This document shows, one piece after another, positions 1 to 22,928 of a stretch of 25,980 nt of DNA (positions are counted from its first letter, which is position 1; each line of letters starts with the position of its first letter). The notes under the pieces are model-generated. The model did not search any database. It was not told where the DNA came from and worked only from the letters and a program-made list of their open reading frames with translations. The position numbers and the translations under genes are program-made. The DNA is from Salisapilia sapeloensis (lineage: Eukaryota; Oomycota; Peronosporomycetes; Peronosporales; Salisapiliaceae). The stretch covers positions 1 through 25,980 of the forward strand of contig JAADVB010000244.1 of assembly GCA_023334545.1 (NCBI GenBank), written 5' to 3'.

Positions 1-1616
1 TACAGGATGCTTAAATACTGCCCACAAGCGAATACAATAGTTCTTTCATGCGGTTGCCGATTGTCCTACCTAAAACAGTAGCGCTTTTCGTTATCGATCA
101 GCCTAGAGATAAAGATTTGAAACGCACACAAAACGCATACCACCTTTTGATTAGCTAAGAAAGCTTACGTATCTCGGCTTCAGTGTAATATGATCACAAG
201 TCTGGAGCAGGTAATTTGCGGCTCAAAAGCCTTGTTTAATTTACGACAGCACCTTTTCATAGCCGCGACCTCAAGTTACCCATCAGTATGCGTAGGGGTT
301 TAGAAAGCATAGCGCAGCTATGTCATATGTGCTGACAAATCAAAGGAAGGTTCTCGTTATCAATACTTAGACGATCTTTTATTAAGATAGCTCTTGTCCT
401 CGGCATACCAAGTTCGTGATGAAGCGGAAAGTCGGAGCTCTACGTCGCAGTGCCATAGTTCTGAACAGTAATTAGACGAATGCATTCAAAGGGTAGCTCA
501 TGCGAAGTGTATGTTTTGCATTTCCATATGACGATACTCTTCATATTCACTTATCAGATCCGCTGTGCAGGTAGATAGTGAAGATCTACTTCGGATTACT
601 TCGAGCTTTATCAGCTGCAGACTATCAAGACAATGTCAAAGCTTTCAAAAATTTCTTCTTGTTTGGTCTTAAATGGTCTTTTCAGCACATGCATACTATT
701 TTGTACATTTATTTCGTTTTGATTTCGTCGCTAGAGACAAAAGGTGTACATATGGTATAGCTTGATCTGATTGTTGTTCTCCATTTAAATGTCAGTATCC
801 ATCTCAAGATTTAAAAAATGCTTAGACTGGAAGATCAGCAACGCATTAGTTCAACATGATGAAATGACCATGTGGCCTGCGGCCATCAGTTTTTCTTTCG
901 AAGTTTCATTTGTGAATGCATCCGCTTGAGGAGCATACTTCTGTTCTTTTGAAATGATACCAGTAGAAGTTTGCCTCGTGTTTCGATCATAAAGTAGGAG
1001 GTACCAAGTTTTAACAGAAACTCTTTGATAGCAGGATAAAATTCGATTTGTGTACATTAAAAGGGTTTTAGTTATGTGCTTTCCTCCTCATCATGCACTC
1101 GCAAGTTCTTTGCGTAATAAGCACGGTCTATTTGATAGCATCGTTACCTAGGTCTAGTCACTTGCAAGGTTAATGCACAGTTGTTGCAATAGCTTACAGT
1201 AAAAAGCTGATTTGCTCACGAGCAGTTAGACGCCACTAGGTGCAGAAGTTTAGTACATTTGAGACACAGCTTGATCAAACAAAAGAAGTTATTTATGTAA
1301 TGATTGGCTTAAAGCATTCTTGGTAAGTTTACTTGAGATAACTTGAACTCTAGCTTTAGCAGCTATTCTAATAGCTGATTTGAAGTGTGGCCAAAACAAC
1401 CATTGCCCAAATTCTTGCGTGAGCATTACGAAATGGCTATGCATACTACTTTGCTCATCAATTAAGAAATTGAAGACGGTAACAGGAGAAATGCTTAGCA
1501 ATCTTTCAAGTTTTTTTTCTAGGTATAAGTTTTATTGGTTGGCATTAACGCACCTTTGCTTTTGTTATGTTGCCGATGTAAGCAAAATCGTGTAAATTAT
1601 GTTGAGATATGCTGCT
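1..1616. other. gene-free AT-rich stretch
   Basis: I see no supportable gene here. Open frames are short (60-71 codons), overlap one another on both strands and show no recognisable motif or splice structure. The stretch lies outside the decayed transposon and ends at the first phased repeat array. Confidence 0.6.
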
Positions 1617-1738
1617 ACTATGACGATCTATGTTGCCACTATGTTGCTCTGTGTCGCCGCTGTGTTGAGGTAAGCTAGTAGGCCATAACGACAACATAGG
1701 TCACCATAGCGACGACATAGGCCGCCACAGAGCACCAC
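1617..1738. repeat. phased CATAG-type repeat array, inverted halves
   Basis: About 120 bp of degenerate 10-11 bp units. The left half reads CTATGTTGCC-like on the + strand; the right half reads CATAGGTCAC, CATAGCGACGA, CATAGGCCGC in the opposite orientation, with a short AT-richer spacer between. The same unit occurs in one orientation in arrays at about 3362-3466, 4895-4968 and 7330-7500. It sits beyond the 3' end of the transposon gene and could be part of an element terminus, but no clean terminal inverted repeat was found. Confidence 0.75.
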
Positions 1739-1838
1739 AAGTTTGTAGATGTATTCAAGCAAAGTCGAAGCTATAAGGTTGAATCTTACACGGATTTAGT
1801 AGTTTACTGGTAATCTACACTCATCACGATTGACACCC

Positions 1839-2274
1839 ATGACTAAAACAACGATATTAAATGCAAGAGCAAACATCACAGACACTTCGACCACAATGAA
1901 GAGCCAACAAGATCACAGCGCCTGCAGCACGCGCGACACAAGATCACAGCGCCTACAGCACGCGCGACAACAGCAAGGCGCTTGAAAGTATGCAGTTTCT
2001 ATTACAACAGCTTCTATGGGTCCGTCTGACAGAAAACGAAGTGCTCACGGACCTCATGAGACTTGCATCAAGTAGCGTACGCGAGCTCGTCGACATGATG
2101 GATGCTCTTCGTACGAAGATTATGGAATTTGACGAAGAAGCGTTGAACGTGGCATCGAGACAAGGCTACGGAGCAACCATCGACGACAGCGAGACTACCC
2201 ATGAACTCCTGGACCCGCTTGCCAATGAAATGAAGCAATTAAATAAAGGACAAGATGAAGGAAGCGTAAGGTAA
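1839..2274 (+). pseudogene. small unknown gene disrupted by a 31-bp duplication
   Basis: Not a family I recognise. An ATG at 1839 opens a frame that runs into the first copy of a 31-bp direct repeat (1908-1969). After the second copy the frame is shifted and ends at TGA shortly before 1990. Counting only one copy, the ATG frame is continuous with the open frame from 1990 to the stop at 2274, giving roughly 135 residues. The downstream part is acidic and helix-prone (SVRELVDMMDALRTK, then EFDEEALNV) and richer in G+C than its surroundings, which supports real coding. It is convergent with the Ulp1 end of the transposon gene (stop at 2414), so it may be element-associated or an independent small gene. 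If translation starts at 1990, a 94-residue product would survive. Confidence 0.4.
1908..1969 (+). repeat. 31-bp direct tandem duplication
   Basis: Two adjacent 31-bp copies, 1908-1938 and 1939-1969, each beginning CAAGATCACAGCGCCT and ending GCACGCGCGACA. They differ at one base (G or A at unit position 17). As 31 is not a multiple of three, the second copy shifts the reading frame. Confidence 0.95.
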
Positions 2275-3361
2275 AGTAGTCCTGTTAGCTTCATTATGCA
2301 TTCCATTCGCTACTCTGATCGTCGACATGAATATGTATCTTTTGTACTTTCAACTGCACGAGAACGCCTTCTTTGTATAACTATGCCTTGTGATCGCTTC
2401 ATAGGCTGTGCATTTACTTCTTCGTCTTCTGTGACCCGTTTTGCAGCTTGTGATACTTTTTTCTTTCTTCAAATGTTGGTCCAATATCCGGATACTTGGT
2501 TTCTGACGACGTAGGGATGAGATTGAGGATCCGTATCCGCATCATATCCATCTGCTTGCTTCTCATACTAGCATGACTGAAGCTTTCGTTCTTGTTTACC
2601 TGCATGTCACACATCCCAATGATGTAGCATCCACAGTTACTTCCGTCTCGCTGAACTGGAAACTCGATCTCATCTACGATCGGTTCTGGCATGGGAATGT
2701 TCTCCATGTCACGTTCCCACCACGTACGTAGAGTTGTTAACAATTCCACCCGATCATGGTGCCTAATTTCGTCAATGTAATATTGACTACGTAATGGGTC
2801 ATAAAAACCCACAGCAAGACTGTATTCGTCGGGCATTGTCAAAATGTGCACAGTTGCCAAGCTCCAGTGTACGTTTCCAAAGCTTATTGAAACTTACAAC
2901 GTATCCACTTCCGTGATATTTTCGATTGGAGCCACGAAAGATTTTAAGACAGGATCGAGTAGACCAATTCGATCCTTGTGTCTGCAAATTGCAGCGATCC
3001 TAGCCGTAACTACTGTGTCATTTAACCACACAGATCCACAAATCCTTCCGCTCAACTCTTCCATGCTCAATCGTACCTCCCTTTCTGCCCCACGAACGAC
3101 TTTGGTGACGGCGATTGACGTCATACCTAGTGCTGTGGCGCACCTTGCAGCCATCTTCGTTATTAATTCTTTCGATAACAACGTTGAAGGCTACAAATGA
3201 TACCTCTTCTCGTCGACTCTGCTGGATAGCCACTTTATGTCGCGGTTTATCTCACGAATAAGATCCTTGAGCTGGTAAAACGTCTCCAATTGATCTACGT
3301 AAGCTCTATAAGTAGTAACCGATAGATTAGTATCAAATGCACTCATGTAAATGACTCATGT

Positions 3362-3466
3362 ACGACGACATAAATGCTAATAAAGCAACATAATTTTTCT
3401 CTAAAGACATAGTATTGCACTTGGCAACATAGTCCGCAACATAGTCGGCAAAACGACATGCAATAG
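3362..3466 (-). repeat. intronic phased CATAG array
   Basis: Lies within the predicted 148-nt intron 3342-3489 (donor GTACGT, acceptor ATGAG). On the transcribed strand the units read GACTATGTTGC, GGACTATGTTGC, then more diverged TTATGTTGC and TTATGTCGTC. Same orientation relative to the gene as the arrays at 4895-4968 and 7330-7500. Confidence 0.7.
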
Positions 3467-4894
3467 GTATTATAGAATGGAATACGTACTCCGACATTTG
3501 CATACTCCGTGGTCCTAGCTCAACTATAACTTGCTTGTCCTTCCAATCCTTGTCTTGCGTTTCCATACCACTGCTGTCCAAACGGACGCCTTCTCTTAGA
3601 CCCTTTTGCTGAAGGCGACGCTTAGCCTTTGACGCTTCAACAATTGCAGTTGAAAGCGGACGAGCCACGACGAAATTTGTCTTCCGCACGCGACCAAGAA
3701 CCCCGATGTAAGCTTTGACATCTTTGCGGCTCTTGTGCTGGTACTTTATTGGCATCATACCAAATACGGCTTGTATCTTTCTTCGTGCTGTTGACCTAAC
3801 ACACAGTATGAACGTGTCGAGCGACATTGCCGTGCCTACATGACTGCTCGAAAGTACACGACCGGCTGAAGGTTTCTTTTCCTTTCCAATAGAAACGATC
3901 GAAGGAAAGCCTGCCTCATAGGCAGTTCTGGAAACGTTGGAGCGTGCATTCTGTACGCGTGGCTCTGTCATATCAAACTCATTTAGCACTGAAGTGACTA
4001 ACGTTGACGAGCTTTCATCTGCTACCGAGCCCCGAGCATCACATCTTATACGCTTTCGTATGCTTTTGCTCTTTGTGCTGGAGTGCACTTGCTCCCTCGC
4101 CGGCAATATAACACTTTCTATCATATTAACTCTCAACTAAACGTAGAAGATAAGAATAAACTAGATAGGCATACCTTGCTTGTAGCAATCGGAAAGTGCA
4201 TTCATCGTTTTGCTCGTCCCATTAACTTCTGTAGCATCTTTTTTAATGTCTATCCAGCAAATTTGAGCATAAACGAAGATCTGGTAATCTAATGCTAACT
4301 TATGTCGGCAACGTTTTATTCTTACCATCCCTTTGGGCTAACATCGCAGTCGTCTCTTCGTCAGCAACGCTCTCTGAATCGTAGGATTTGCCGGAAGTGT
4401 CGTTACCAGCTACTTATGACGATTCTATGTCGATTTACAACACTCTGCTTAATATGTAGATCCAAATGTATATATGAAATCGTGTCAGCTTTTACCTTCC
4501 TCAAATTTCTTCACAAGCAGACGTCGAACTAGTTGAGCAACTTGATCTTCGTACAAGGAGCTTTCGCTTCGGCTAGACACTTGGGCTGATGACGAAGTCC
4601 GTCGATTCCACTCTATTGCACGTTTCCATAAGTTAGTAAGTGTCTGGAACGCTAAACGATATGTATGAGCGAGCAATCGCCAAGCTACTACTCATAACTA
4701 TGGTTAAATCTATTAAAACAAACGATAGAGTGAGCCGTACCTTGCGATTGTGGTCGAGTAGTAAGTTGACTTCCAGCATTTGGCAAACCTGGTGTTGCAT
4801 CTTCCCGACCAACCAGTGTACCTACACCAAATAGACGTGTGAGATGGCCAAAGCTTCATATCATTACAAAATTGTCAACAAAAGCTCCCCACAA

Positions 4895-4968
4895 CGTCGA
4901 TATAGAGCGCCATAGCGCAACATAGCTCGCCATAATGTCGACATATCTCACCATAGTTTGAGCACAGT
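4895..4968 (-). repeat. intronic phased CATAG array
   Basis: Occupies the middle of the predicted 176-nt intron 4822-4997 (donor GTAAAA, acceptor TGTAG), the largest well-supported intron of the gene. On the + strand the units are CATAGCGCAA, CATAGCTCGC, CATAATGTCGA, CATATCTCAC, CATAG: spacings of 10, 10, 11, 10. Neighbouring introns without the array are 28-89 nt. Confidence 0.8.
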
Positions 4969-5421
4969 AGCAAAAATAGATAATATACAAGTTTTACCTT
5001 TGTCCAAGAGCTTGTTCGTTTGCTGAAATACCTCTAGGGAGTGAGCCGACAAATTCAGATCCATTGCTAGCATCTGAGATGGAGGTGTTGCTGTCCCAAG
5101 AAGGAAGTACTCGTCGATATCCCCCAAGTTTCCGCCCATATGCATGTCCGTGTCGTCCTTTGCTGGAAAAGCGTTTTTTCAATCAGCGCTCTTACGTTGA
5201 TGAGGCACCTTTCCTTGGCTGCATGTCGGTGTCTTACGGCAAAGGTCACCATCGTCTTCATCCAGATAGCTTTCTTCATCAGACTCATGCCCTGTATGCG
5301 AAATAGCCTCCATGAGTACTTGACTTTCCGTTTCGTCTCTTTTATAAAGCTCATATCCAGCTTGCAGAGATTCAGCGCGAGGCGATGCGCTCTACTTCGA
5401 CGTAAATCGGGATAGAAACTG

Positions 5422-7184
5422 CTAAGTAAATATCACAACCGACGCAAATGCTGCTTTATGATCCTCGACTGACAGCTTAGATAGCAAGAGCACAAGCGGT
5501 TCAACTAAGTTGCGAAGTTGATTGTAACATATTTGTTGCTTTCCCTCATCACTAACAACATCTAAGGGCTTAGTGGTAATTTGGATCTCATCCAGATGGC
5601 AATGGCTAGATTGTGTTGATACTATATCATCGTTTCCGCTTACTGTCAATAAAGTAGAACCAGAATTTGGCAAGACTCGTGCTGCTGAGCGATAATCGTC
5701 CACCGCTTGCGCAAAGGCCGATATCATCTTTCTTGTCCTTGACATTTTCCACCGTGGGTTGAGACCATCTTCAGGATAAACACGTAGTCGCTCAGCTCCA
5801 TGTAAAATCAGCAACAAATGCTGGCATGGCAAATGCGTTGAGCAATAAAAGATACACATACACGTATACCGAGAGGTATCGACGGTCTGGACATTTGGAG
5901 ATGCTTCACAGCTTCGGATTTGGTAAGTCGTGCTATCGTCATAAGCTTCATGCCAGTTTTTGACTTGCTCCATTTTCCTTTCTGCGTAGCTCCATTGACT
6001 ATGCACAAGCCGAGCACAGTATTTGCTCAACTGATCGTTAAGATGCACCAAAAATATCGACGTCTGCCTTTCATGACGATAGGTACTATAGAAGGATATA
6101 ACCGAACTGTTGATTGTGTTTAGTACTGTGGCATTGTGCTCAAGGACGTCGGATATGTATTGTGCTAAAGATGTTTTCCGTTTAATACAGCCTTAAAATG
6201 CTTCCAATTACTTTCGATTCTGTTTGACGTCGTGTTTCCAACGGAAAAGTAGTTACCACGAAGATGCGTCGCCCATTTATTTGCACACGACATCCAATTG
6301 GTTTCGAAGTATCTGCGTAATGCGTGGTTCTCTCCAGAACACAGCTCGTACAAATCCACTAATGTGTTATCAAAATTGAACTTTGTTGAAGCGTGAACCA
6401 AACTGGAGCATAATGATTCAGCGCGCTTACGATCGACTCGTGGGATACCATACTCAATCTTTTCAACTCAAATTTAAGGAACTTGATAATGTGAAACTGA
6501 AATAGTAGAATTTTAGCGTCTGGAAACATGGACTCCAGAACATTCCATTCTTTAAAGTCCTTGTCGATAATGAAGGGCTGAACACGCTGTGCAGGAACTT
6601 TATAGGAACTAATAAATTGATTTAATAGCACCCTCATCATGTCCTTGCTATGCGAATCTGTTAACATATCGCAAACAGGCACTCCTCTTCCTGTTGGAAA
6701 CGTTGCAACCAACGTTGCCATCGAGTAACCTAGGTTGTTTGTCCCATGGGTAAAGTCGAAGATGAGAGACTCGCCGTACTTCGACATTACTTCTCGGTGT
6801 ATCTGCGATTGCATATATACCCCTCGTAAAATGTTTAAAGCCGATTTAACCAGTACCACGTCGCTGCCTTTTGCATGAAAACTGTCAAGCATTGCTACAA
6901 TTTTCTCTTCTGTTGTTCCTTTCATAATCTGCGCGAATAAAATTCGCGCCTTCTGGCCTGTATACGATACATCCATTCTCTCAGAGATAACTGATGGTAA
7001 GCTTCGAGAAGGAGTGCGCGCTTAAACCATAGCGCGAAGCTCGACTTGGAGCTTTTCGTCCGTAACGTTGGAGTTCAGGTGATACTGTGCAGCCCACTCT
7101 GGTGTCAACTCGTGGAAATGCGTTGTGCACTAGCATTGTCATAAAAGCATTTGTATGCAGGTAAGTAAATCTTCTACAACACAT
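5422..7184 (-). pseudogene. MULE transposase core and SWIM finger, frameshifted
   Basis: Three frame blocks that together follow a MULE transposase. Block 6976-6359 holds the first catalytic Asp region (LIFDFTHGTNNLGYSM) and the second (PFIIDKDFKEW), followed by FPDAKILLFQFHIIKFLK, the usual MULE signature after the second Asp. Block 6401-6165 continues with NWMSCANKWA and NTTSNRIES. Block 6051-5422 carries the SWIM finger, CMC followed by LPCQHL (CxC...CxH). Likely single-base shifts near 6400 and 6178 separate the blocks; the sequence between 6165 and 6051 is open in the frame of the last block. A further block 7184-6981, upstream, is shifted near 6985. The last block probably splices at 5439 (GTTGTG, an unusual donor) to the exon starting at 5391. 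It could only work if frameshifts were sequencing errors. Confidence 0.85.
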
Positions 7185-7329
7185 TGTGATGGTAGCGTTT
7201 AAGCTAAATACATATACTAGTCTTCATCTTTTGAAAACTTTAATGCTTATCCATCATTTAAGCAATAACACTTATTTAAAAATATGCATGATGCTATAGG
7301 GATATCTAAGCACCGAAAGCAACCTAGAT

Positions 7330-7500
7330 ACGATTCATAGGTCATATACGCTTCCCACAATGCACCACTAGACCTACATAGGTCACCATAGAGCAACTTT
7401 TGGTTAACATAAGTTGCCATAGGACGCCATTAGTCTGACATAGGTCGCCATAGGATGTCATTCGTCCAACACAGGTTACCGTTGAATGAAATTAAGCCGG
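7330..7500 (-). repeat. phased CATAG array in an inter-exon gap
   Basis: The longest and cleanest array: + strand units CATAGGTCAC, CATAGAGCAA, then CATAAGTTGC, CATAGGACGC, CATTAGTCTGA, CATAGGTCGC, CATAGGATGT, CATTCGTCCAA, CACAGGTTAC. Spacings alternate 10, 10, 11 and so average near one DNA helical turn. It lies between a good splice donor (exon end 7594, donor GTACAA) and the next transposase block (starting below 7200), so is probably intronic; the acceptor was not resolved. Confidence 0.8.
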
Positions 7501-7593
7501 CATTAGCAAGCATAACTATGTGGTAGATGTATGGGTGATAGCATCAAGCTCATTGTTCATGTAGGAACAATATATACATACAAATGGTTGTAC

Positions 7594-8218
7594 CTCACTC
7601 GTAGGGGTAATGTCAAAGTCTTCATGAACCTTGACGACTTTCATAAGGATGCGAACTGGACTTCCCACGAATCGATCACTTCTGCCCGGACGCTCGACAG
7701 TTGATCGACTATTTGCAAAACAACCGTGCGTAGAATTATAGCTGACCGAGGCGTAAGTAAAGCGGGCTTCCGGTAGCCGCTTCTCTTCTAATTTGACACT
7801 TTTTGTATGCCGCTATCCCCATTGACGCCCGTCGACGGTATTTCGAGAAGGTAACAGACTCATAAGCAGCAATAAATTTTTGTGCTTCCTCCCACGTATG
7901 AAAGGCTCGGTCTTTTACTGTTGTTACCGTTGAGCGCACTTCGGAAGCCTTAGCGGTAAACTCGGATCGATGCTTGTAGGTACTTGTCCGACGCATCCGA
8001 TTCAACGGCTTAAGTTGCTGCTGTGCATCATCAGATCGTCGCTTGGTCTTGCGTTGCCTTGCGCGCTCTTCTCTTCGTTTCTTATTGCCAAAGGTATTTT
8101 CCAGCACCAAATCATCGTCAGAGGTGTGCTCAGTACTGCTGGAGCTAGACTCATAGGCAGGATATGTTTTTGAAGCGTCATACGAGGATGCCGACGACGG
8201 AGATCGTGTGCGTTGCAT
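7594..8218 (-). pseudogene. N-terminus of the MULE transposase (Ser-rich lead, DNA-binding region)
   Basis: The frame opens at ATG 8218. It has a Ser-rich acidic stretch (about residues 7-35), then a basic Lys/Arg-rich stretch, then AFHTWEEAQKFIAAYE and KYRRRAS, the region that begins the DNA-binding module of oomycete MULE transposases. The frame ends at 7736, but from about 7760 a second frame continues with STHGCFANSRS and a hydrophobic/basic strand pattern up to exon end 7594. THGC is the expected next piece of the same module, so I infer a 1-nt frameshift near 7760. Start choice: first ATG after the stop of the upstream gene, only 12 bases away; a splice donor-like AAG/GTATCA lies directly before it, so joining to the upstream gene is possible. 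Confidence 0.65.
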
Positions 8219-8230
8219 TGATACCTTCCT

Positions 8231-9057
8231 TTATTTCTTTTGTTCCTGCTGTACTCTCGCTATTTCAACCGATGACTTGGGCGAGGATATATATCTAGTC
8301 GACTTAGAAGCGGATCCCGTCTTATCTTGACTTTTCAATTCACTTTCTGTTTCAGTCTTATTCTCATCCAATGTCGATGCAATTTCGGCGCGTTCCTTGG
8401 ATGCTGCTTTGCGTTCTCCTGGAATATAATCTTCCGGTGTGCTATCAGACAACAGCTCATCATCTATGAACCCCAGTAAAACGTCAGATGGGCACGTTAA
8501 AGCAAATAAAACAGCAGTTAAAGTGCAAGTTAAAACAAGCAAAGCGTTACCAAGCTTACTCTGATGTTTGATCTTCTTAGCTGCGTCTAGACCTTTTAGC
8601 ACACTTACCACGCCTGCTATCGATAAGATTTGTGTATGCATTGGCGGCTAGTACATAGCATGAGTTGTATATAAAGCATTCATATCAATATTAACGCACC
8701 ATTATTACTTACTATATACTTCTTTCTCTTTCCTCGCGCAACTTTTCCTGAAGGCTTCGCTGACTCAAGTTGTCGCTAAAGCTCGTAAGCAAATACTGCA
8801 TTTTGAACAATGCTAGTATAAATAGTGAGCCGAGATAAATATCCAAGTTATGCAGTACCGTTGCGTTGAACCTTCAAATCTTGAGCTTTCGCCAGCCTTT
8901 TAGCCTCCTGTCTTCTTTCTAGCCGCGCTTTGTTTCGAGATCGAGCTTGTTGAATCAATTCGTAGCCTGATATGCCGAGAAGAGTAGGCGCGAACGTATC
9001 CATCGTGTTCTCTTTGTCAACATGACCAGAACTCCGTAAATACGGCGGCGTCATCAT
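8231..9057 (-). CDS. unknown multi-exon gene, charged helical protein
   Basis: I do not recognise the product. Frames and splice sites suggest exons 9057-8859, 8812-8720, 8647-8609, 8580-8560 and 8463-8231, with introns of 46, 72, 28 and 96 nt, giving about 194 residues. All joins are phase 1. The spliced product is very rich in Arg/Lys/Glu, with a long helix (QARSRNKARLERRQEAKRL, then LREERER), and a Ser/Lys/Glu-rich tail ending VQQEQKK. An unspliced reading of 8641-8231 would instead give a transmembrane stretch; I think that stretch is the 96-nt T-rich intron (8464-8559). The gene lies on the same strand 12 bases before the transposase start, so it may be an accessory element gene. The 28-nt intron and 21-nt exon are unusual and could be wrong. 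Confidence 0.45.
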
Positions 9058-10262
9058 CCTCTACGTCGATGACTCGGAGCTCATTTGGAGTGCATGGAGA
9101 GCGCAGTTATAAAAAACGAATGGCTTAGAGTGAGTGCTGAAATGTGCTTCCAAGTGGGTTTCCACTTGTCTTCACTATGAAGATTTAAACGTGAATATGG
9201 AAACTTGGTATCTTTCTATGAACTTAACGCCTAAGGAAAGAATGCCTTGGTAGCTGCAAATCTGATTTATTGATTCTTGTTCTGTGTATGGACTTCGCTT
9301 TCTACATATACCTGGATCACCCATCACGACGCAGGTGCGTAGTTACCTCATCCGTGCTGTAATCGTTGGGAAAGCTAAAACCTACCTTTTAAAAACTAGA
9401 CTCTATAGCTTGCGCTTGAAACTTTCGTATATTAGGTTGAAGTTGTATTCATTTCTACCAAAACAATTTTTTTAATTATGGTGCGTTAACGCGTTAGACT
9501 TTTTATTTATGTATCTACTCTTAAGAAAGCTTTTTTGGAAGTGAGATACATTGATATCAAGTTATTTATAATGTCTAGTGTCCTTCCCGAGCATGCAACT
9601 AGCGCGTGCTCGCCTACCGGCCCAGCCATGCGCCGAAAAGGTCTTTACCTATGGTCTATATGTAGACTATATACTATGTATCCGTAAGCTCCATCCATCG
9701 TCCTCTTTCAGTCATCAATTGGTTTGAATATGGAAGCTAAGAAAGCTTCATCTTACGACAGACATACAATTAATGATGAGCGCTGTGCAAGGTAAAGCAT
9801 GTAAAGTTCTAGATATTTTCGTATATTTCCTATCGCTTCCATAATCTGGATATGTTTTTTTCTAATGATTGATCATTATCTGCTGTATGAAGCCTGTGTC
9901 TTCTTCGTAGCCATGAAACTTGCGTCAATATCATCAAATACTATGACCTAGTGTGGCATCTCAGCTACTTCATTTAAAAGTTTCACTAATGCATCACGTT
10001 TTCCAACCAGTTTCGAACAACTCACTGGCAAATATGTCTTCCTAGAGTGACTCTGATGATATGGTGCCATTATATGTTTCTAATAGTGTGTCTTCCTGGA
10101 TGCATGAGCCCAGAGGCTAAAAAGTAACTTATCAACCTAACCAAGCATCTTCAGTCGACAGCCTACACACTAACACAGGTTCTACCGAATTCTCAGCTAT
10201 ATCTAAAAATAAATTTTGATTTCGTTTTCCGCTAACACACTCGCAGCATCCTTTTTTGCCAA
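9058..10262. other. intergenic, no gene seen
   Basis: AT-rich, with only short unsupported frames. At its left edge (about 9030-9105, minus strand) a second frame reads ELRVIDVEDDDAAVF, which looks protein-like and might be a shifted or earlier exon of the 8231-9057 gene. Confidence 0.5.
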
Positions 10263-11014: not shown

Positions 11015-11856
11015 AGCTATGACGAATAGACGAATTTTAAAGCTAAGCACTTTACATTTTATGAAAAATTGACAGTGAATCTCTGCATTGGACCGAAAAA
11101 CTAATGACTGGGTTTGATGACTAGCTTTATACACAAGGATCCAACCGAATACTTCATTCGCCTATCTACTAATTGTAGACAATACCGAGTATGACCGGAG
11201 AAGATTTTTTTGGTACAAGACAATAGCGACCTACTTTGCGCGGGCAAAAACCAGTATCAGATTTTGGTGATCGTGGAACTATAGCCAAACCAGATCACCG
11301 CGAGCTTTTATAAATGTAGATACACGAATGTGTTCTCGATAGTGCGATTACTCTTCGAAATATATTTGGTTATGCTGGAAGAGATAACCTCATAATCTGA
11401 GTAGTTTTTAATAACTCCTAGATTCGTAAGATGCAGAGAAGGCGTACATTCACCTCAACATCTTGCTCACGATGTCACATTCTAATATGTTTTCATGCGC
11501 ACGATTGCGGACGTGTCTGTGAACTTCTTTGCTTGTAATTAGATTTCAGAGAACTACCTGGTGGATAAATACAAGATGCAATTGATCAGCTTTCAGTAAT
11601 TCTTATGTCACTGCACAGACCTGGCGAGGAACTATTTCATTTAGTCTCTATAAACTAGGACACTAAACAAATGCAAGCCTTTTCAATTGTAGAACTTACC
11701 AAAGTATTTGTACACGAAGCGTTTCATTTCTACGTAAAAGTATATCTAATCGCTCATACAGAGTATGTGTAGAAACCTAGGAGTGACGGTGTTTGATTAC
11801 GCAACCTTGATAGAAAGTTAGATTTCAGCACGTTACGAACAGTTAAGGACACGAAT
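11015..11856. other. intergenic, no gene seen
   Basis: About 840 bases between the LRRC51-like gene and the promoter of the Rab escort gene. AT-rich, stops in all frames, no repeat or RNA gene recognised. Confidence 0.6.
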
Positions 11857-11876
11857 GCTCACTTTTATCCTTTTCG
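11857..11876 (+). promoter_or_regulatory. oomycete core promoter (Inr-FPR type)
   Basis: GCTCACTTTTATCCTTTT resembles the oomycete initiator plus flanking region (consensus about GCTCATTYYNCAWTTT) and lies 35 bases before the ATG of the Rab escort gene, the usual distance. Transcription probably begins inside it. Confidence 0.6.
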
Positions 11877-11891
11877 ACCAGCGAAGGGAGC

Positions 11892-13700
11892 ATGGATCCC
11901 GCTCTTTTGCGCCAAGAGTTTGACTTTGTCATCGTCGGTACTGGTCTTTCTGAATCCATACTTGCTGGTGCATTATCTAGAGCTGGCAAGAGTGTGCTAC
12001 ATTTGGACCAGAACGACTATTACGGTAGCAATTACGCCTCCCTTCCTCTAGAAGCTTTTCTTGATTGGACGCAGAATAAGAAGGCTGAACCATATATTCC
12101 AAGTGAAGATGAATTCCAGGGGCCTCTAATCTCCGATAATTCTCAAGAAGACCCGTCTGAGTCATCCAATGATGACATTTTCATCCCCATGACCTGTCCT
12201 CCATCCTGTACTCTTCTCTCCGAGGCCTTTCGTGACGACGAAACACGTCAGGAGCTCCTGTCCAAGTCATCCCACTTTAGTATCGATCTCCAGCCTCGGT
12301 TACTACTCGCTTCAGAAGACTTAGTCCAAGTCATGATCACCTCTGGCGTCGGTCGCTACTTGGAATTTGCATCTGTAGACCGTAGTTACGTGCACATGAA
12401 CCTATCAGACACTGGCGATAGTATAGTAGATAACGTATGGCAAGTACCTTGTTCGAAGAAGGACGTTTTCCAGTCAAAACTCTTGTCGCCAGTGGAAAAA
12501 CGTATGCTGATGAAATTTTTACAATTCGTAGCAGACTATGGCGAGACACAGATCCAGGGCAAAGACATTTCGACTGAGAATGAACGTGACCTATCTCTTG
12601 GTAGGTCTCTCAAACGTCCCCAGAATAAAGCTCATAAGCTTGAGATCGATTCGGAGCGACTAGAGGAACCTTTCCAACAGGTTCTAGCAGAAGAGTTTAA
12701 GCTTACGACTAAACTACAAGACATCATCGTTTTTAGTGTAGCTTTAGCATCCTTTCCCTATGCAGAAACAAATGCCCATCGGATGCAGATAACAGCAAGA
12801 GACGGACTCTACGCTGTCTACAAGTATGTTGCGTCCATTGGTCGATTCACAGGAGCTGCGTTCCTATCGCCATTGTATGGAGTGAGTGAAGTAGCCCAAA
12901 GCTTCTGTCGATTAAGTGCCGTATACGGTGGCATCTACATCTTACGTGCTCCTCTTCAGGACTTTAAGATCGATACGAAAGATCATATAGTGCGTGGCAT
13001 TCAGTGTGTAGATGGAAGTATGGTACGTACGAAGGAGTTGGTGGTGAATGGAGCGTATTTGAGTTCTTTACTACCGGAGAAACAAGTATGTAAGCAAAAG
13101 ATTCTTCGTGCTGTCTATCTTCTTGATCGACCGATTCGTCCAGATGTGAATCGATGTGTCTTGAGCATCCCACCAGACGATGCGGAGATTAAGAATCCAT
13201 ATGCGATTCAAGTCGTGCAGTTAGATGCTGGTGCATGTGTATGTCGATCTGGAGATTACGTGATCCATTTCGAAATGGTCGAGCCACAGGAGTGGGAAGA
13301 CGAGAGCAAGAAGGAACAAGTGATGATGAAAGCGATGGAACAGTTGCTGCAGAGTCAAGTGGACGATTGGAAGACTTGTGTCCAATGGTCAGCAGTCTTT
13401 AGTATCCCACAGGAATCTTCTGCGACAATTGTGGGAGGTTTGGAACCTACGGACTTGCCATCGAATGTACATGTGACAGAGTTATCGATGGAGAAGGATG
13501 GAATGGAACCTCTAGAGTTACATTTGGAACGAGCGACGTCCAATGCGAAGGAATTATTTGAGAAACTTTGTCCAGGAGAAGAGTTTTTACCAAAGAGTGC
13601 AAGTGCGGAACAAGCAGAGCGGATGGAATGGGCAGAAGAAGAAGGCGCAGTGTTGGAAGCAGCACAAAAGTTGGCCAAGGAAGCACATGTGGAAGAGTAG
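11892..13700 (+). CDS. Rab escort protein (GDI/CHM family)
   Basis: A single-exon gene of 602 residues. Rab escort proteins present newly made Rab GTPases to geranylgeranyl transferase II and deliver the prenylated Rab to membranes; they act in the cytosol as component A of that enzyme. The N-terminus FDFVIVGTGLSESILAGALS (residues 10-29) followed by GKSVLHLDQNDYYGSNYASL is the conserved dinucleotide-fold segment of the family. LDQNDYYG and SES fit escort proteins rather than GDI, which has TEC and MDRNPYYG. The length matches yeast Mrs6 (about 600) and exceeds GDI (about 450); the additional length includes an acidic insert near residues 75-95. Later blocks (SPLYGVSEVAQSFCRLSAVYGGIYIL) are also typical of GDI/REP. 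The start is the first ATG after a core promoter. It is convergent with the dehydrogenase, 97 bases apart. No damage seen. Confidence 0.93.
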   Translation: MDPALLRQEFDFVIVGTGLSESILAGALSRAGKSVLHLDQNDYYGSNYASLPLEAFLDWTQNKKAEPYIPSEDEFQGPLISDNSQEDPSESSNDDIFIPMTCPPSCTLLSEAFRDDETRQELLSKSSHFSIDLQPRLLLASEDLVQVMITSGVGRYLEFASVDRSYVHMNLSDTGDSIVDNVWQVPCSKKDVFQSKLLSPVEKRMLMKFLQFVADYGETQIQGKDISTENERDLSLGRSLKRPQNKAHKLEIDSERLEEPFQQVLAEEFKLTTKLQDIIVFSVALASFPYAETNAHRMQITARDGLYAVYKYVASIGRFTGAAFLSPLYGVSEVAQSFCRLSAVYGGIYILRAPLQDFKIDTKDHIVRGIQCVDGSMVRTKELVVNGAYLSSLLPEKQVCKQKILRAVYLLDRPIRPDVNRCVLSIPPDDAEIKNPYAIQVVQLDAGACVCRSGDYVIHFEMVEPQEWEDESKKEQVMMKAMEQLLQSQVDDWKTCVQWSAVFSIPQESSATIVGGLEPTDLPSNVHVTELSMEKDGMEPLELHLERATSNAKELFEKLCPGEEFLPKSASAEQAERMEWAEEEGAVLEAAQKLAKEAHVEE

Positions 13701-15676: not shown

Positions 15677-15702
15677 AAACCAAGAGAGGAGAAAGTAACC
15701 CA

Positions 15703-16696
15703 ATGATGCAAAGTGCAAACGGACTTTACCTAAACTTATTTCAAATAATCTTGTTCTTGCTTTACCTTATTTTTGCTACTGCGCAAGGTACAAGCGGAAT
15801 AAATAGCAAGGTTTACAATTTTTCAGATGCAGACCTGCTGAGCACAGTCAATCCCATCTCGACACAGGTCGAGGAAAATAGAATTATACTCGGTGATACT
15901 ATTGAATGGGAGAATGCACGCTTCATGGTAGGCATATGTCTCTCAGAGGGTGCAGAAAATCATTGTGGCGGAACGCTTATAGGAAGTTGATTTGTGTTGA
16001 CAGCGGCACATTGCATTACAAATATCATCCTGAATAAAAATGGAGTCGTTAGAGGGCATAGATCTATACAAGGCTTGTATGTCTCTGTTGGGACAAATAC
16101 CACCGCCGGAACTGACTCCGGTGAGCAGGTTCAATTAATCGAAGTCAAGGTGCATCCTAAATTTGCTCCAAGAACTGATACGAGAGCTTTTATATATGAT
16201 GCAGGAATCATTGTTCTTCGTCATAATGTATCCGAACAGCATCGACATCTCGTTGACTATGAATCGTCGCTTGCTAGGCCAGAGGAGTGAGCACGATGGC
16301 ATTCATTAGTAGCAAACACATACGGATGGGGTCCAAACGAAAGCAGACAAGAGCGAAGGAGCATGCCGGTCTCTTATTCTTTTCCAAATCTATTACAACA
16401 TGCGGAACTGAAGCTTATGAGCAACAAAAGGTATCAAACGCTTTCTGCAAACAAAATCTATTACATATATATCTGTGCGGGTAAAATGAAGGAAGTTTTT
16501 AAAGTGTGAAGAAAGGAATATGTAAAAAAGATGCGGTCCATTGATGCTCAATGGAAAGCAACTTGGGATTGCAATAGCTTACGATGCAAAATGCGGAAGG
16601 AAACCAGGAATTCTTCTTCGTGTACCTTTGATTCACCCCTGGATATACCATACCGTGCGAGAAGCAAAAGAGAGACATAATGGCCTAAGTGATTGA
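15703..16696 (+). pseudogene. trypsin-like / glucanase-inhibitor-type secreted protein, copy 1
   Basis: Chymotrypsin-fold (S1) secreted protein of the type that in Phytophthora includes glucanase inhibitor proteins. An N-terminal signal peptide (hydrophobic residues about 9-27) precedes a short pro-region and the mature domain: CGGTLIGS, FVLTAAHC (catalytic His present), YDAGIIVLRH (catalytic Asp), ANTYGWG, YIYICAG. The frame is broken by TGA at 15988-15990, just before FVLTAAHC, and by TGA at 16288-16290. A third TGA at 16507 is followed by frame changes, one within the Ser motif at about 16535, where only part of GDSGGP remains. The last block ends at 16696 with the typical C-terminal helix (HPWIYHTV). 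Related to copy 2 at 21942, which keeps Arg codons at the positions of the first two stops. Non-functional unless stops are read through. Confidence 0.85.
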
Positions 16697-17797: not shown

Positions 17798-18464
17798 CTA
17801 CTGGAAAGCAATGAAAATTCCGGTCAAAAGTAGTTGATAATCAACTTTGAGGATATTTCCGCTATCACTTCCCGAATTTTCGCCTTCGTTGGGTTCGGTT
17901 ACAACCTGCGACTCATCGCCGCTTTGACTTGAAACCTCCGAGAATAAAGTAGAGCTATCAGCATTTGAGAAAGGTACCCCACTATCCGAAGACGATTCTT
18001 CTGTCCCTTTTAGTGAGTTTTCACCTTCATCCTTAAACAACGGAGACTTGTCCCCAGACTTTGATTCTTTAAAGAGAAAAATTGTGAGTGAATGATCTTA
18101 CGATAATACAAGCGAACGTACCTATGAGGTCAAATATGCTTGACGGTTCATCGAGATCCTTGAACGTTTTACACGTTTCCTCAAGGGGAATCTGATAGAT
18201 TTCCTTGGCCGCATTTTTAGAGTTCGATTGAATTGACTTGCAGTTTGGCATCTTTTTGACTACCTCCCTGTTCCTCTTTAGGCACTTTTCACTGCAATAT
18301 CCTTCATTATCCTGCCAATGAAAGCAATTTGCCATGCCATTTTCAAAAGCGAAGTCATTGTAGATATAATTCATCTTTAAGTAGTCATCTTCCGTGCACT
18401 GCCTCCCAAAAGCTTGACTTAGATGAAGGGATAAAATGAACGCAAAGAGAGTGCAGGCAAACAT
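17798..18464 (-). CDS. elicitin-like secreted protein, possibly GPI-anchored
   Basis: Two exons, 18464-18122 and 18066-17798, with a 55-nt intron (GTACGT...TTTAAAG, phase 1), encode about 203 residues. A signal peptide (residues 1-18, MFACTLFAFILSLHLSQA) is followed by six cysteines at residues 23, 47, 57, 61, 75 and 98. Gaps are 23, 9, 3, 13 and 22; canonical elicitins have 23, 23, 4, 14 and 23. The CSEKC...KKMPNC block is the elicitin helix-plus-PxC signature. Elicitins are oomycete sterol-binding proteins seen by plants; sterol binding here is untested and the C2-C3 loop is 14 residues short. Exon 2 is a Ser/Glu/Asp-rich, probably O-glycosylated stalk ending in a hydrophobic tail (LLLTGIFIAFQ), like GPI-anchored elicitin-like proteins, though the tail is short. 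Frame and splice sites are intact, unlike the trypsin-like neighbours. Confidence 0.65.
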
Positions 18465-18495
18465 CAGCGATCGATGATAGCTTTGCTTTCAAGGC

Positions 18496-21722: not shown

Positions 21723-21941
21723 ATTCGATTAGGAACGAGAATCCCTAGAATTATTCGTCTCTAAAAAGGAATGATGTAAATTTCTATTCACATGCGACGG
21801 AAGTATGCTATCGCTGGTTAAAACGCTATACCCTAGGATATATCGCAGTTCTAATTTAAGATATACTACTTAGGCTATTCTCTGGCCAGAAAGTAGCATT
21901 TTACGTTATTTTTAAATTAAAATAGCAAAGACAACTGAACG

Positions 21942-22928
21942 ATGCAAACTGTGCATGAATTTCATCTTGACTTTTGGATTACCTTCTTTTCCACATTGTG
22001 TATGGGTGGGTGTACTGGCAATGCTACAAATGAACTGGACAGCAAGAAACTTTATAACGTTTCCGATGCAGATGTGCTGGATAATGTAAATCCAGACTCA
22101 GCAGAGCGTGTTCGAAATCGTATATTTCGCGGCGAGACAGCCAAATGGGAATATGCCCCTATCATGACTGGCATACGTCTCAACGCGGGAGGAAGAACCA
22201 CCTGTGGTGGATCGCTGATAGCAAGTCGACTAGTGTTGACCGCAGCATATTGTACAACAAATGTTCATAAAAATCAAAACGGTGTGGCAACGGGGTACAC
22301 ATTAATAGGAGGCCCATTGTATCCATCGGATCCAATGTCAAGTCCGGTGCAAATTCTGGTATTCAGGTTGAAGTGAGCGAAGTAAAATCAATGAGCATTT
22401 CGCTCCGGAAAGCAATGCGATTTCTGATAAATACGATGCAGGCATCTTTGTTCTTCGCCATGCTGTACCCAAACAATATCGTCATTTTCTCGAATATGAG
22501 TCTTCACTATGTAGACCAGTGGAGCGGTCACGGTGGCGTGGACCGGTGGCAGACTCATACGATTGGGGTGCGAGCTAACGTAGATGAGAGGGAAGAAACG
22601 AACTGATTCCCTGTTGTTATCCATTGCAGCTACAACATGTACAACTAGAGCTAGTGAGCAGGAAAACTTGTCAATCCTGGTATAAAGACAACATTTACTC
22701 CATGTACTTTTGTGCAGGTAAAGGCAAGCGCATGCTGCAAAGCGTCATAAAGGTATATGTAAAGGGGATTTAGTAGGCCCGTTAATATATGATGGAAATC
22801 AAATTGAAGTTGCTTCAAAAGTGGATGACATGTGTGAAAAGAAGTCCGGGGTATTCCTACGTGTATCACATATTTACCTCTCGATTTATCATATCATACA
22901 AGAAATAGAGAAGCAAAACGAGGGTTAA
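21942..22928 (+). pseudogene. trypsin-like / glucanase-inhibitor-type secreted protein, copy 2
   Basis: Paralogue of copy 1 in the same orientation, about 6.2 kb away. The first frame (21942-22376) has a signal-peptide-like start, the same pro-region (YNVSDADVLDNVNP), CGGSLIASRLVLTAAYC, and then shifts. Further blocks in other frames hold KYDAGIFVLRHAV, DSYDWG, IYSMYFCAG and a C-terminal block from GPLIYDG to the stop at 22926-22928. The catalytic His is Tyr here (TAT against CAT in copy 1), and the Ser motif is lost: the frame hits TAG TAG directly before GPL. Loss of triad residues is usual in glucanase inhibitor proteins, so the Tyr may predate decay, but the frameshifts make this copy a pseudogene. 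The promoter region (about 21893-21915) is only weakly initiator-like. Confidence 0.82.

Follow-up and report, generated by a model that had tools for sequence, protein, structure and literature searches.

CATAG repeat arrays in predicted introns and at the 3' end of a decayed Mutator-like element of Salisapilia sapeloensis

The DNA stretch analyzed here (the window; 25,980 nt, representing positions 1 to 25,980 of contig JAADVB010000244.1 in assembly GCA_023334545.1 of the oomycete Salisapilia sapeloensis) contains a transposon gene with arrays of short CATAG units in its introns, raising the question of what these arrays belong to and why they reside in introns. In the 19.5-Mb, 452-contig genome assembly, where the window corresponds to contig C162, CATAG arrays are specific to one low-copy transposon family of Mutator-like elements (MULEs) and are no host-wide intron feature, within the sensitivity of the patterns applied. 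With about even confidence, we consider the CATAG unit to be the subterminal recognition repeat for the element's own putative DNA-binding protein, duplicated into the introns.

Arrays in introns and at the 3' end of the element

Window positions 1537-9497 (minus strand), with ends placed by eye, represent a decayed MULE copy homologous to C112:88298-95745. Its MULE/ZSWIM RNaseH-like transposase part (6359-7021, minus strand) is recognized by PF21056 (E 6.8e-24) and PF10551 (E 8.6e-9), providing the domain expected of MULEs. Piecewise DNA homology to C112 extends over 1598-9498 (66-75 % identity), and the transposase of the C112 copy shares 67 % protein identity with that of the window copy. 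The window copy is interrupted by stops and frame breaks, and the C112 copy lacks ~1 kb of the transposase and carries two stops. Identity between these two long copies is 51 % at third codon positions, compared with 76 % at first and 80 % at second positions.

Codon-position bias relative to C112 marks the coding stretches, and the reading frame changes across all array-bearing gaps, with a weak signal following the second. Introns were selected by frame consistency and by the presence of splice sites at the corresponding position of C112, with acceptors and donors enumerated within short ranges only. Three introns are thereby predicted on the minus strand: (i) intron 1 at 7130-7593 (464 nt, phase 0), with a GTA donor and the acceptor AATGCTAG in both copies, (ii) intron 2 at 4822-4997 (176 nt, phase 1), with a GTAAAA donor and a GTRTAG acceptor in both copies, and (iii) intron 3 at 3306-3489 (184 nt, phase 2), whose GTACGT donor and AG acceptor have counterparts at the aligned C112 positions. 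A preliminary description of the window had placed CATAG arrays in two introns and an inter-exon gap, and a frame-consistent intron indeed fits each array: intron 2 is identical to the one proposed there, the array-bearing gap around 7330-7500 with a donor at 7593 fits intron 1, but the third intron, given as 3342-3489, is better placed at 3306-3489. The shorter alternative (148 nt, 3489-3342) keeps the frame, but its acceptor is missing in C112 (by eye); the acceptor at 3306 is present there, and a TACTAA word precedes it in both copies. Two likely short introns near 8.7-8.8 kb (by eye) contain no array model match.

The unit consists of about NCATAG plus a linker of 4-5 bp, resulting in mostly 10-11 bp spacing. 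Array 1 in intron 1 (7377-7484, plus strand) is built from 10-11 bp units, three of which make up a higher unit of 31 bp (z 8.5 at lag 31, p=0.002), array 2 in intron 2 (4901-4967, plus strand) comprises 7 units spaced 10-11 bp and is phased (p=0.004), and array 3 in intron 3 (3408-3444, plus strand) has three exact CATAG at spacings of 20 and 12 bp. The previously reported spacing of 10, 10 and 11 bp corresponds to the 31-bp higher unit of array 1. Further arrays, overlooked in the preliminary description, are located in a relative of the element on C71 (see below) and at the 3' end of the window element: the outermost one (1597-1664) has CATAG on the minus (transcript) strand in 7 units spaced 10-11 bp (lag 21, z 6.8), and the inner one (1684-1730, plus strand) has the opposite orientation and 5 units of the same spacing (lag 21, z 4.1). 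These end arrays display a 21-bp higher unit (11+10). An earlier suggestion of transposon subterminal motifs removed by splicing was therefore close to right, as the intronic unit is that of the 3' subterminal array in the window element and its relatives.

The element is delimited by short and imperfect terminal inverted repeats (TIRs). The 3'-end TIR (1537-1554, plus strand) matches the other end in 12 of 13 bases, and the 5'-end TIR with one adjacent CATA unit (9477-9497, minus strand) reads exactly GCGTTAACGCNNCATA, a sequence that occurs twice in the 19.5 Mb, namely at the 5' ends of the window and C112 copies. In both, short inverted termini around GCGTTAACGC coincide with the limits of homology. 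Target-site duplications in the size range of MULEs (~8-11 bp), all of them imperfect, flank the C112 copy (10 bp, AAACTTTATT / AAACTTTCTT, 9/10 matching), the window copy (10-bp flanks 1527-1536 / 9498-9507, 8/10 matching by eye) and the C71 relative (8/10 matching by eye). With 1-2 mismatches allowed, the TIR pattern has 54 further matches, including one end on C143 and an inverted pair on C71. Since this loose pattern matches 56 times versus 115 times in the control, only the two exact, the paired C71 and the C143 matches were used.

The relative on C71 (32203-32662, ~460 bp) is devoid of element genes, has inverted termini at both ends and retains an array at the 3' one. In alignments with the long-copy ends, both of its end regions score above 200 of 200 shuffles. 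C143 provides one TIR end with array. A foldback-like relic on C234 (stretch L078, about 195-500) has array model matches on both strands and a chain score (see below) of p=0.02 in one and ~0.28 in the other orientation. The left part of this relic resembles the C143 relic (by eye). Altogether, five family loci were found, i.e., those in the window (C162), C112, C143, C71 and, as a weak member, C234. Own-genome DNA similarity searches with the 3.4-kb intron region, the window 3' end and the C71 element as queries returned self-matches only; this search also misses C112.

Array occurrence was assessed by a chain score of CATAG-like words at distances of 9-12 or 20-21 bp versus 2000 mononucleotide shuffles. 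The arrays exceed chance in the three introns of the window copy (p=0.0005 each) as well as in those of C112 (p=0.0005, 0.0005 and 0.0015), and none of the six introns yields a signal in the opposite orientation (p 0.37-1.0). The earlier observation of a single direction relative to transcription is thereby borne out; agreement of three intron arrays is expected in 1 of 4 cases by chance and is not significant alone. Helical phasing, tested as self-match summed over lags 10/11/20/21/31/32/42 versus 500 dinucleotide shuffles (C112 array 4 and C234 left out), is supported for window arrays 1, 2, 4 and 5, C112 arrays 1, 2 and 5, C143 and C71 (p 0.002-0.004).

In the window, C112, C71 and C143 (the C143 end being taken as 3'), the outermost 3' array carries CATAG in transcript sense, and the intron arrays read opposite to it on the transcript. 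Due to these opposite strand readings, intron arrays and outermost 3' array read alike when seen inward from each end, like inverted ends; this is geometry, not proof. Hairpin formation is apparently no common feature, being strong only in C112, where 95535-95680 harbours a near-perfect inverted array duplication (-51.7 kcal/mol, z -13.4) not seen in the window copy. Corresponding z values are 0.06, -1.3 and -1.75 for the 3' arrays of the window copy, C71 and C234, and -2.5 and -0.7 for arrays 1 and 2 taken alone.

Family restriction and conservation of CATAG cores

The whole genome was searched with three different three-unit patterns (up to 3 mismatches), using reversed patterns as controls. 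The first pattern gave 8 matches (control 0), all in C162 or C112. Matches to the second (18; control 4) are distributed over C162 (5), C112 (8), C143 (1) and C234 (1), with C4, C31 and C65 outside the family, and those to the third (15; control 2) over C162 (7), C112 (6) and C71 (1), with C113 outside. The C31 stretch has no array model match. The exact triplet matches 4 times (0 in the control), always within the window, C112 or C143. Genome-wide enrichment is absent for the exact doublet CATAG-N5,6-CATAG (45 matches versus 110 for its reversal), and two exact units alone are therefore uninformative. Array model R1 (E<=1) yielded 25 matches over 18 sources; these fall in the window element, C112, C143 and C71, and 0 of 13 other stretches contain one; since R1 was built from those arrays, only the lack of matches elsewhere is informative. 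More degenerate arrays could escape the three-unit patterns. In the three introns, the best 15-base match to the TIRs is no better than in shuffled sequence (fractions 0.14-0.90; true ends 0.00-0.04), and nested insertion of a small relative into the introns was rejected due to this lack of TIR remnants.

Comparison of window and C112 arrays revealed identical CATAG cores at 83 of 97 positions versus 58 of 102 in linkers (p=6e-6). The difference is also found with the intron arrays only (cores 53/62, linkers 38/69; p=1.3e-4) and with arrays 2 and 5 in full register (cores 53/60, linkers 33/58; p=1.1e-4), and it is maximal at register zero among slides from -5 to +5. Tested singly, arrays 2 (p=0.0018) and 5 (p=0.019) are significant. 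Gapped positions were set aside in these tests (64 in array 1, 17 in array 2). Fresh alignments of whole introns yielded 59/64 identical positions for cores, 41/62 for linkers and 351/555 for the rest of the intron. As linker identity is about that of the remaining intron and core identity is higher, the linkers look neutral and the cores do not. A plain slippage satellite, all unit positions of which should diverge alike, is at variance with 83/97 versus 58/102, with the register choices described below applying to this comparison.

A proposed recognition repeat and its alternatives

Computed results comprise the array positions, the predicted introns, the family restriction within pattern sensitivity, the arrays in two diverged copies and the conservation of cores over linkers. 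A DNA-level recognition site is favoured by the unit beside the TIR, the core conservation and the C71 relative, which retains its 3' array without any genes. The putative recognition unit would thus be present once directly inside the 5' TIR, as arrays at the 3' end and as copies in three introns. Its cores may be bound by the DNA-binding part of the transposase or by a companion protein, largely on one helix face. Binding sites on one helix face had been considered in the preliminary description and appear plausible at the sequence level in view of the core-over-linker conservation, but array 3 is not phased. The 3'-end arrays could help to assemble an end complex, and through the intron arrays the element might bind within the region it transcribes, which would either dampen expression of the transposase or supply the array that the 5' end lacks; these arrays are oriented as would be expected if they formed the 5' counterpart of the outermost 3' array. 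Introns would hold such arrays because they are the non-coding places inside genes. Only tentatively, one may speculate that the intron arrays are working end-recognition copies, which, bound by protein, brake transposase expression or provide the end complex with the 5' half that the array-free 5' end is missing, splicing hiding cis-acting transposition sites in the coding region.

Several points weigh against a recognition repeat with functional intron copies. In the lag test, neither array 3 (p=0.41) nor the corresponding C112 array (p=0.49) shows phasing. No arrays occur near the 5' end in the three of three cases seen (window, C112, C71), differing from Muta1/Tm1-style foldback MULEs with arrays at both ends. 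The family search named no DNA-binding family in two pieces of the N-terminal part, and the only two long copies (window, C112) both have stops, frame breaks or a deletion. Core tests of single arrays are not significant for array 1 (p=0.14) and array 3 (p=0.089). Furthermore, the core test is not free of choices: array 3 was entered through the three exact CATAG it contains, a degenerate position of array 1 was skipped, and array 4 was omitted. In the whole-intron comparison, introns 1 and 3 have low alignment scores, and the aligner may favour cores in what is one pair of copies only.

Some of these points would agree with a neutral scatter of slippage minisatellites, copied from the ends into introns by faulty gap repair and tolerated there with no present function. 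The 21- and 31-bp higher units and the C112 inverted duplication (z -13.4) show that array DNA duplicates easily, phasing is lost in array 3, and agreement of three introns in orientation has a chance probability of 1 in 4; conserved cores next to linkers resembling neutral intron, and arrays at corresponding places in two copies with 51 % identical third codon positions, nevertheless render such an origin possible but doubtful. The conservation of the whole CATAG rather than of any TA step likewise favours a sequence reader over structural DNA, i.e., TA and G/C steps alternating each half turn that bend DNA or place nucleosomes with no specific binding protein. In most arrays, the TA steps do have spacings clustered around 10.4-10.7 bp, and G/C steps are offset from them by roughly 4-5 bp (no shuffled baseline), but this spacing follows from the unit itself and array 3 is unphased, making a purely structural role unlikely.

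For the RNA level, repeated CUAUG in the pre-mRNA could control splicing, or pair with opposite arrays and trigger silencing. The single orientation in all six introns (three per copy) would avoid pairing within the transcript, but the non-coding C71 relative also has such an array at its 3' end, the ends of the long copies carry arrays in both orientations, and with n=3 this role seems very improbable. Introner families are described to make 5 to over 2,000 introns per genome in the accessible part of PMC9860276, and the CATAG arrays share with them a transposon-derived sequence located in introns, but differ in their limitation to one transposon family. The introner-like sequences suggested in the preliminary description, which would represent a family of mobile introns in the host, were rejected within the sensitivity of the three-unit patterns, as matches outside the family (0/8, 3/18 and 1/15) are at control level (0, 4 and 2) and the introns contain no terminal-repeat remnant; their probability is close to negligible.

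Regarding the CATAG unit as a recognition repeat, intronic placement with conserved cores appears to be the new part, subterminal MULE repeats being already known. In Drosophila Foldback (FB), the inverted repeats are composed of tandem repeats of 10, 20 and 31 bp, and FB-NOF has a protein related to those of MULEs; the FB arrays make up both long inverted ends, and to our knowledge FB has no intronic array copies. According to the accessible text of PMC5225508, the Aedes aegypti MULE Muta1 generates target duplications of 8-9 bp and ends in a 10-bp palindromic motif, next to which short subterminal tandem repeats of 12 bp are arranged in 9 copies with 3-4 bp spacers, and its non-autonomous relatives vary in repeat number; subterminal repeats of 9-15 bp are given there for 10 of 12 long-TIR families of A. 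aegypti MULEs. Target duplication, terminal motif, short subterminal tandem repeats and non-autonomous relatives are thus common to Muta1 and the window family, whereas the latter has a ~10-bp target duplication, a unit every 10-11 bp, arrays at one end and intron copies, which that text does not mention. The Mutator/Foldback element Tm1 of root-knot nematodes (Meloidogyne) likewise combines a MULE-type transposase and 9-bp target duplications with a varying number of 13-15 bp end tandem repeats; these are positioned within inverted repeats at both ends, their unit exceeds one helical turn, and intronic arrays are not mentioned in the accessible part of PMC3169594. That tandem repeats of transposon ends may contain binding sites has been tested in the foldback-like Galileo, where they hold extra sites for the THAP domain of its transposase; as far as described in the accessible parts of PMC3688188 and PMC3573991, Galileo differs in superfamily (P), long TIRs and ~210 bp units in one subfamily, with no mention of intronic arrays. 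Rehavkus and the aphid Phantom are also MULEs with a minisatellite away from the ends, but theirs is listed in the protein C-terminus or after the open reading frame (ORF), not in introns (PMC6446971, accessible part).

That no named family fits, as stated before, applies to the exact arrangement but not to MULEs with short subterminal tandem repeats, as described for Muta1 and Tm1 in the above sources. No report of intronic copies of transposon terminal repeats was found in the literature searched, which covers subscription journals thinly. If true, the proposed function would provide a simple route to self-regulation via cis-acting sites in transcribed transposon genes that are spliced from the message. 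It would also caution against taking repeats in transposon introns for either introners or junk.

Further features of the element and the window

The element also encodes a Ulp1-type (C48) peptidase part (2414-2893, minus strand; PF02902, E 6.1e-7). Searches with the transposase retrieved 59 candidates from the protein collection, none at E<=0.001, and 12 pattern matches in viral contigs, none of which was confirmed. A small ORF of 94 aa (1990-2274, plus strand), convergent with the transposase, is well conserved in C112, as seen from its third-position bias and its translated sequence. This bias is the strongest in the element, and no family scored above cut-off. Its placement is reminiscent of the second gene of some MULEs; antisense second ORFs of MULEs are listed in a table of PMC6446971, as far as accessible. 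Upstream of the convergent ORF, a 31-bp tandem repeat of unrelated sequence is present in two copies (1907-1968; 97 % identical).

Elsewhere in the window, a short reading frame at 18069-18488 (minus strand) is rich in cysteine and may encode a signal peptide (by eye); it has no Pfam family above cut-off. A Rab escort protein is encoded at 11847-13700, its closest relatives being proteins of Phytophthora and Pythium, of which the top matches share 50-51 % identity across 97-98 % of the query. Two related fragments at 15679-16290 and 21939-22606 (plus strand) resemble trypsin-type proteases by their LTAAHC-like motif (by eye).

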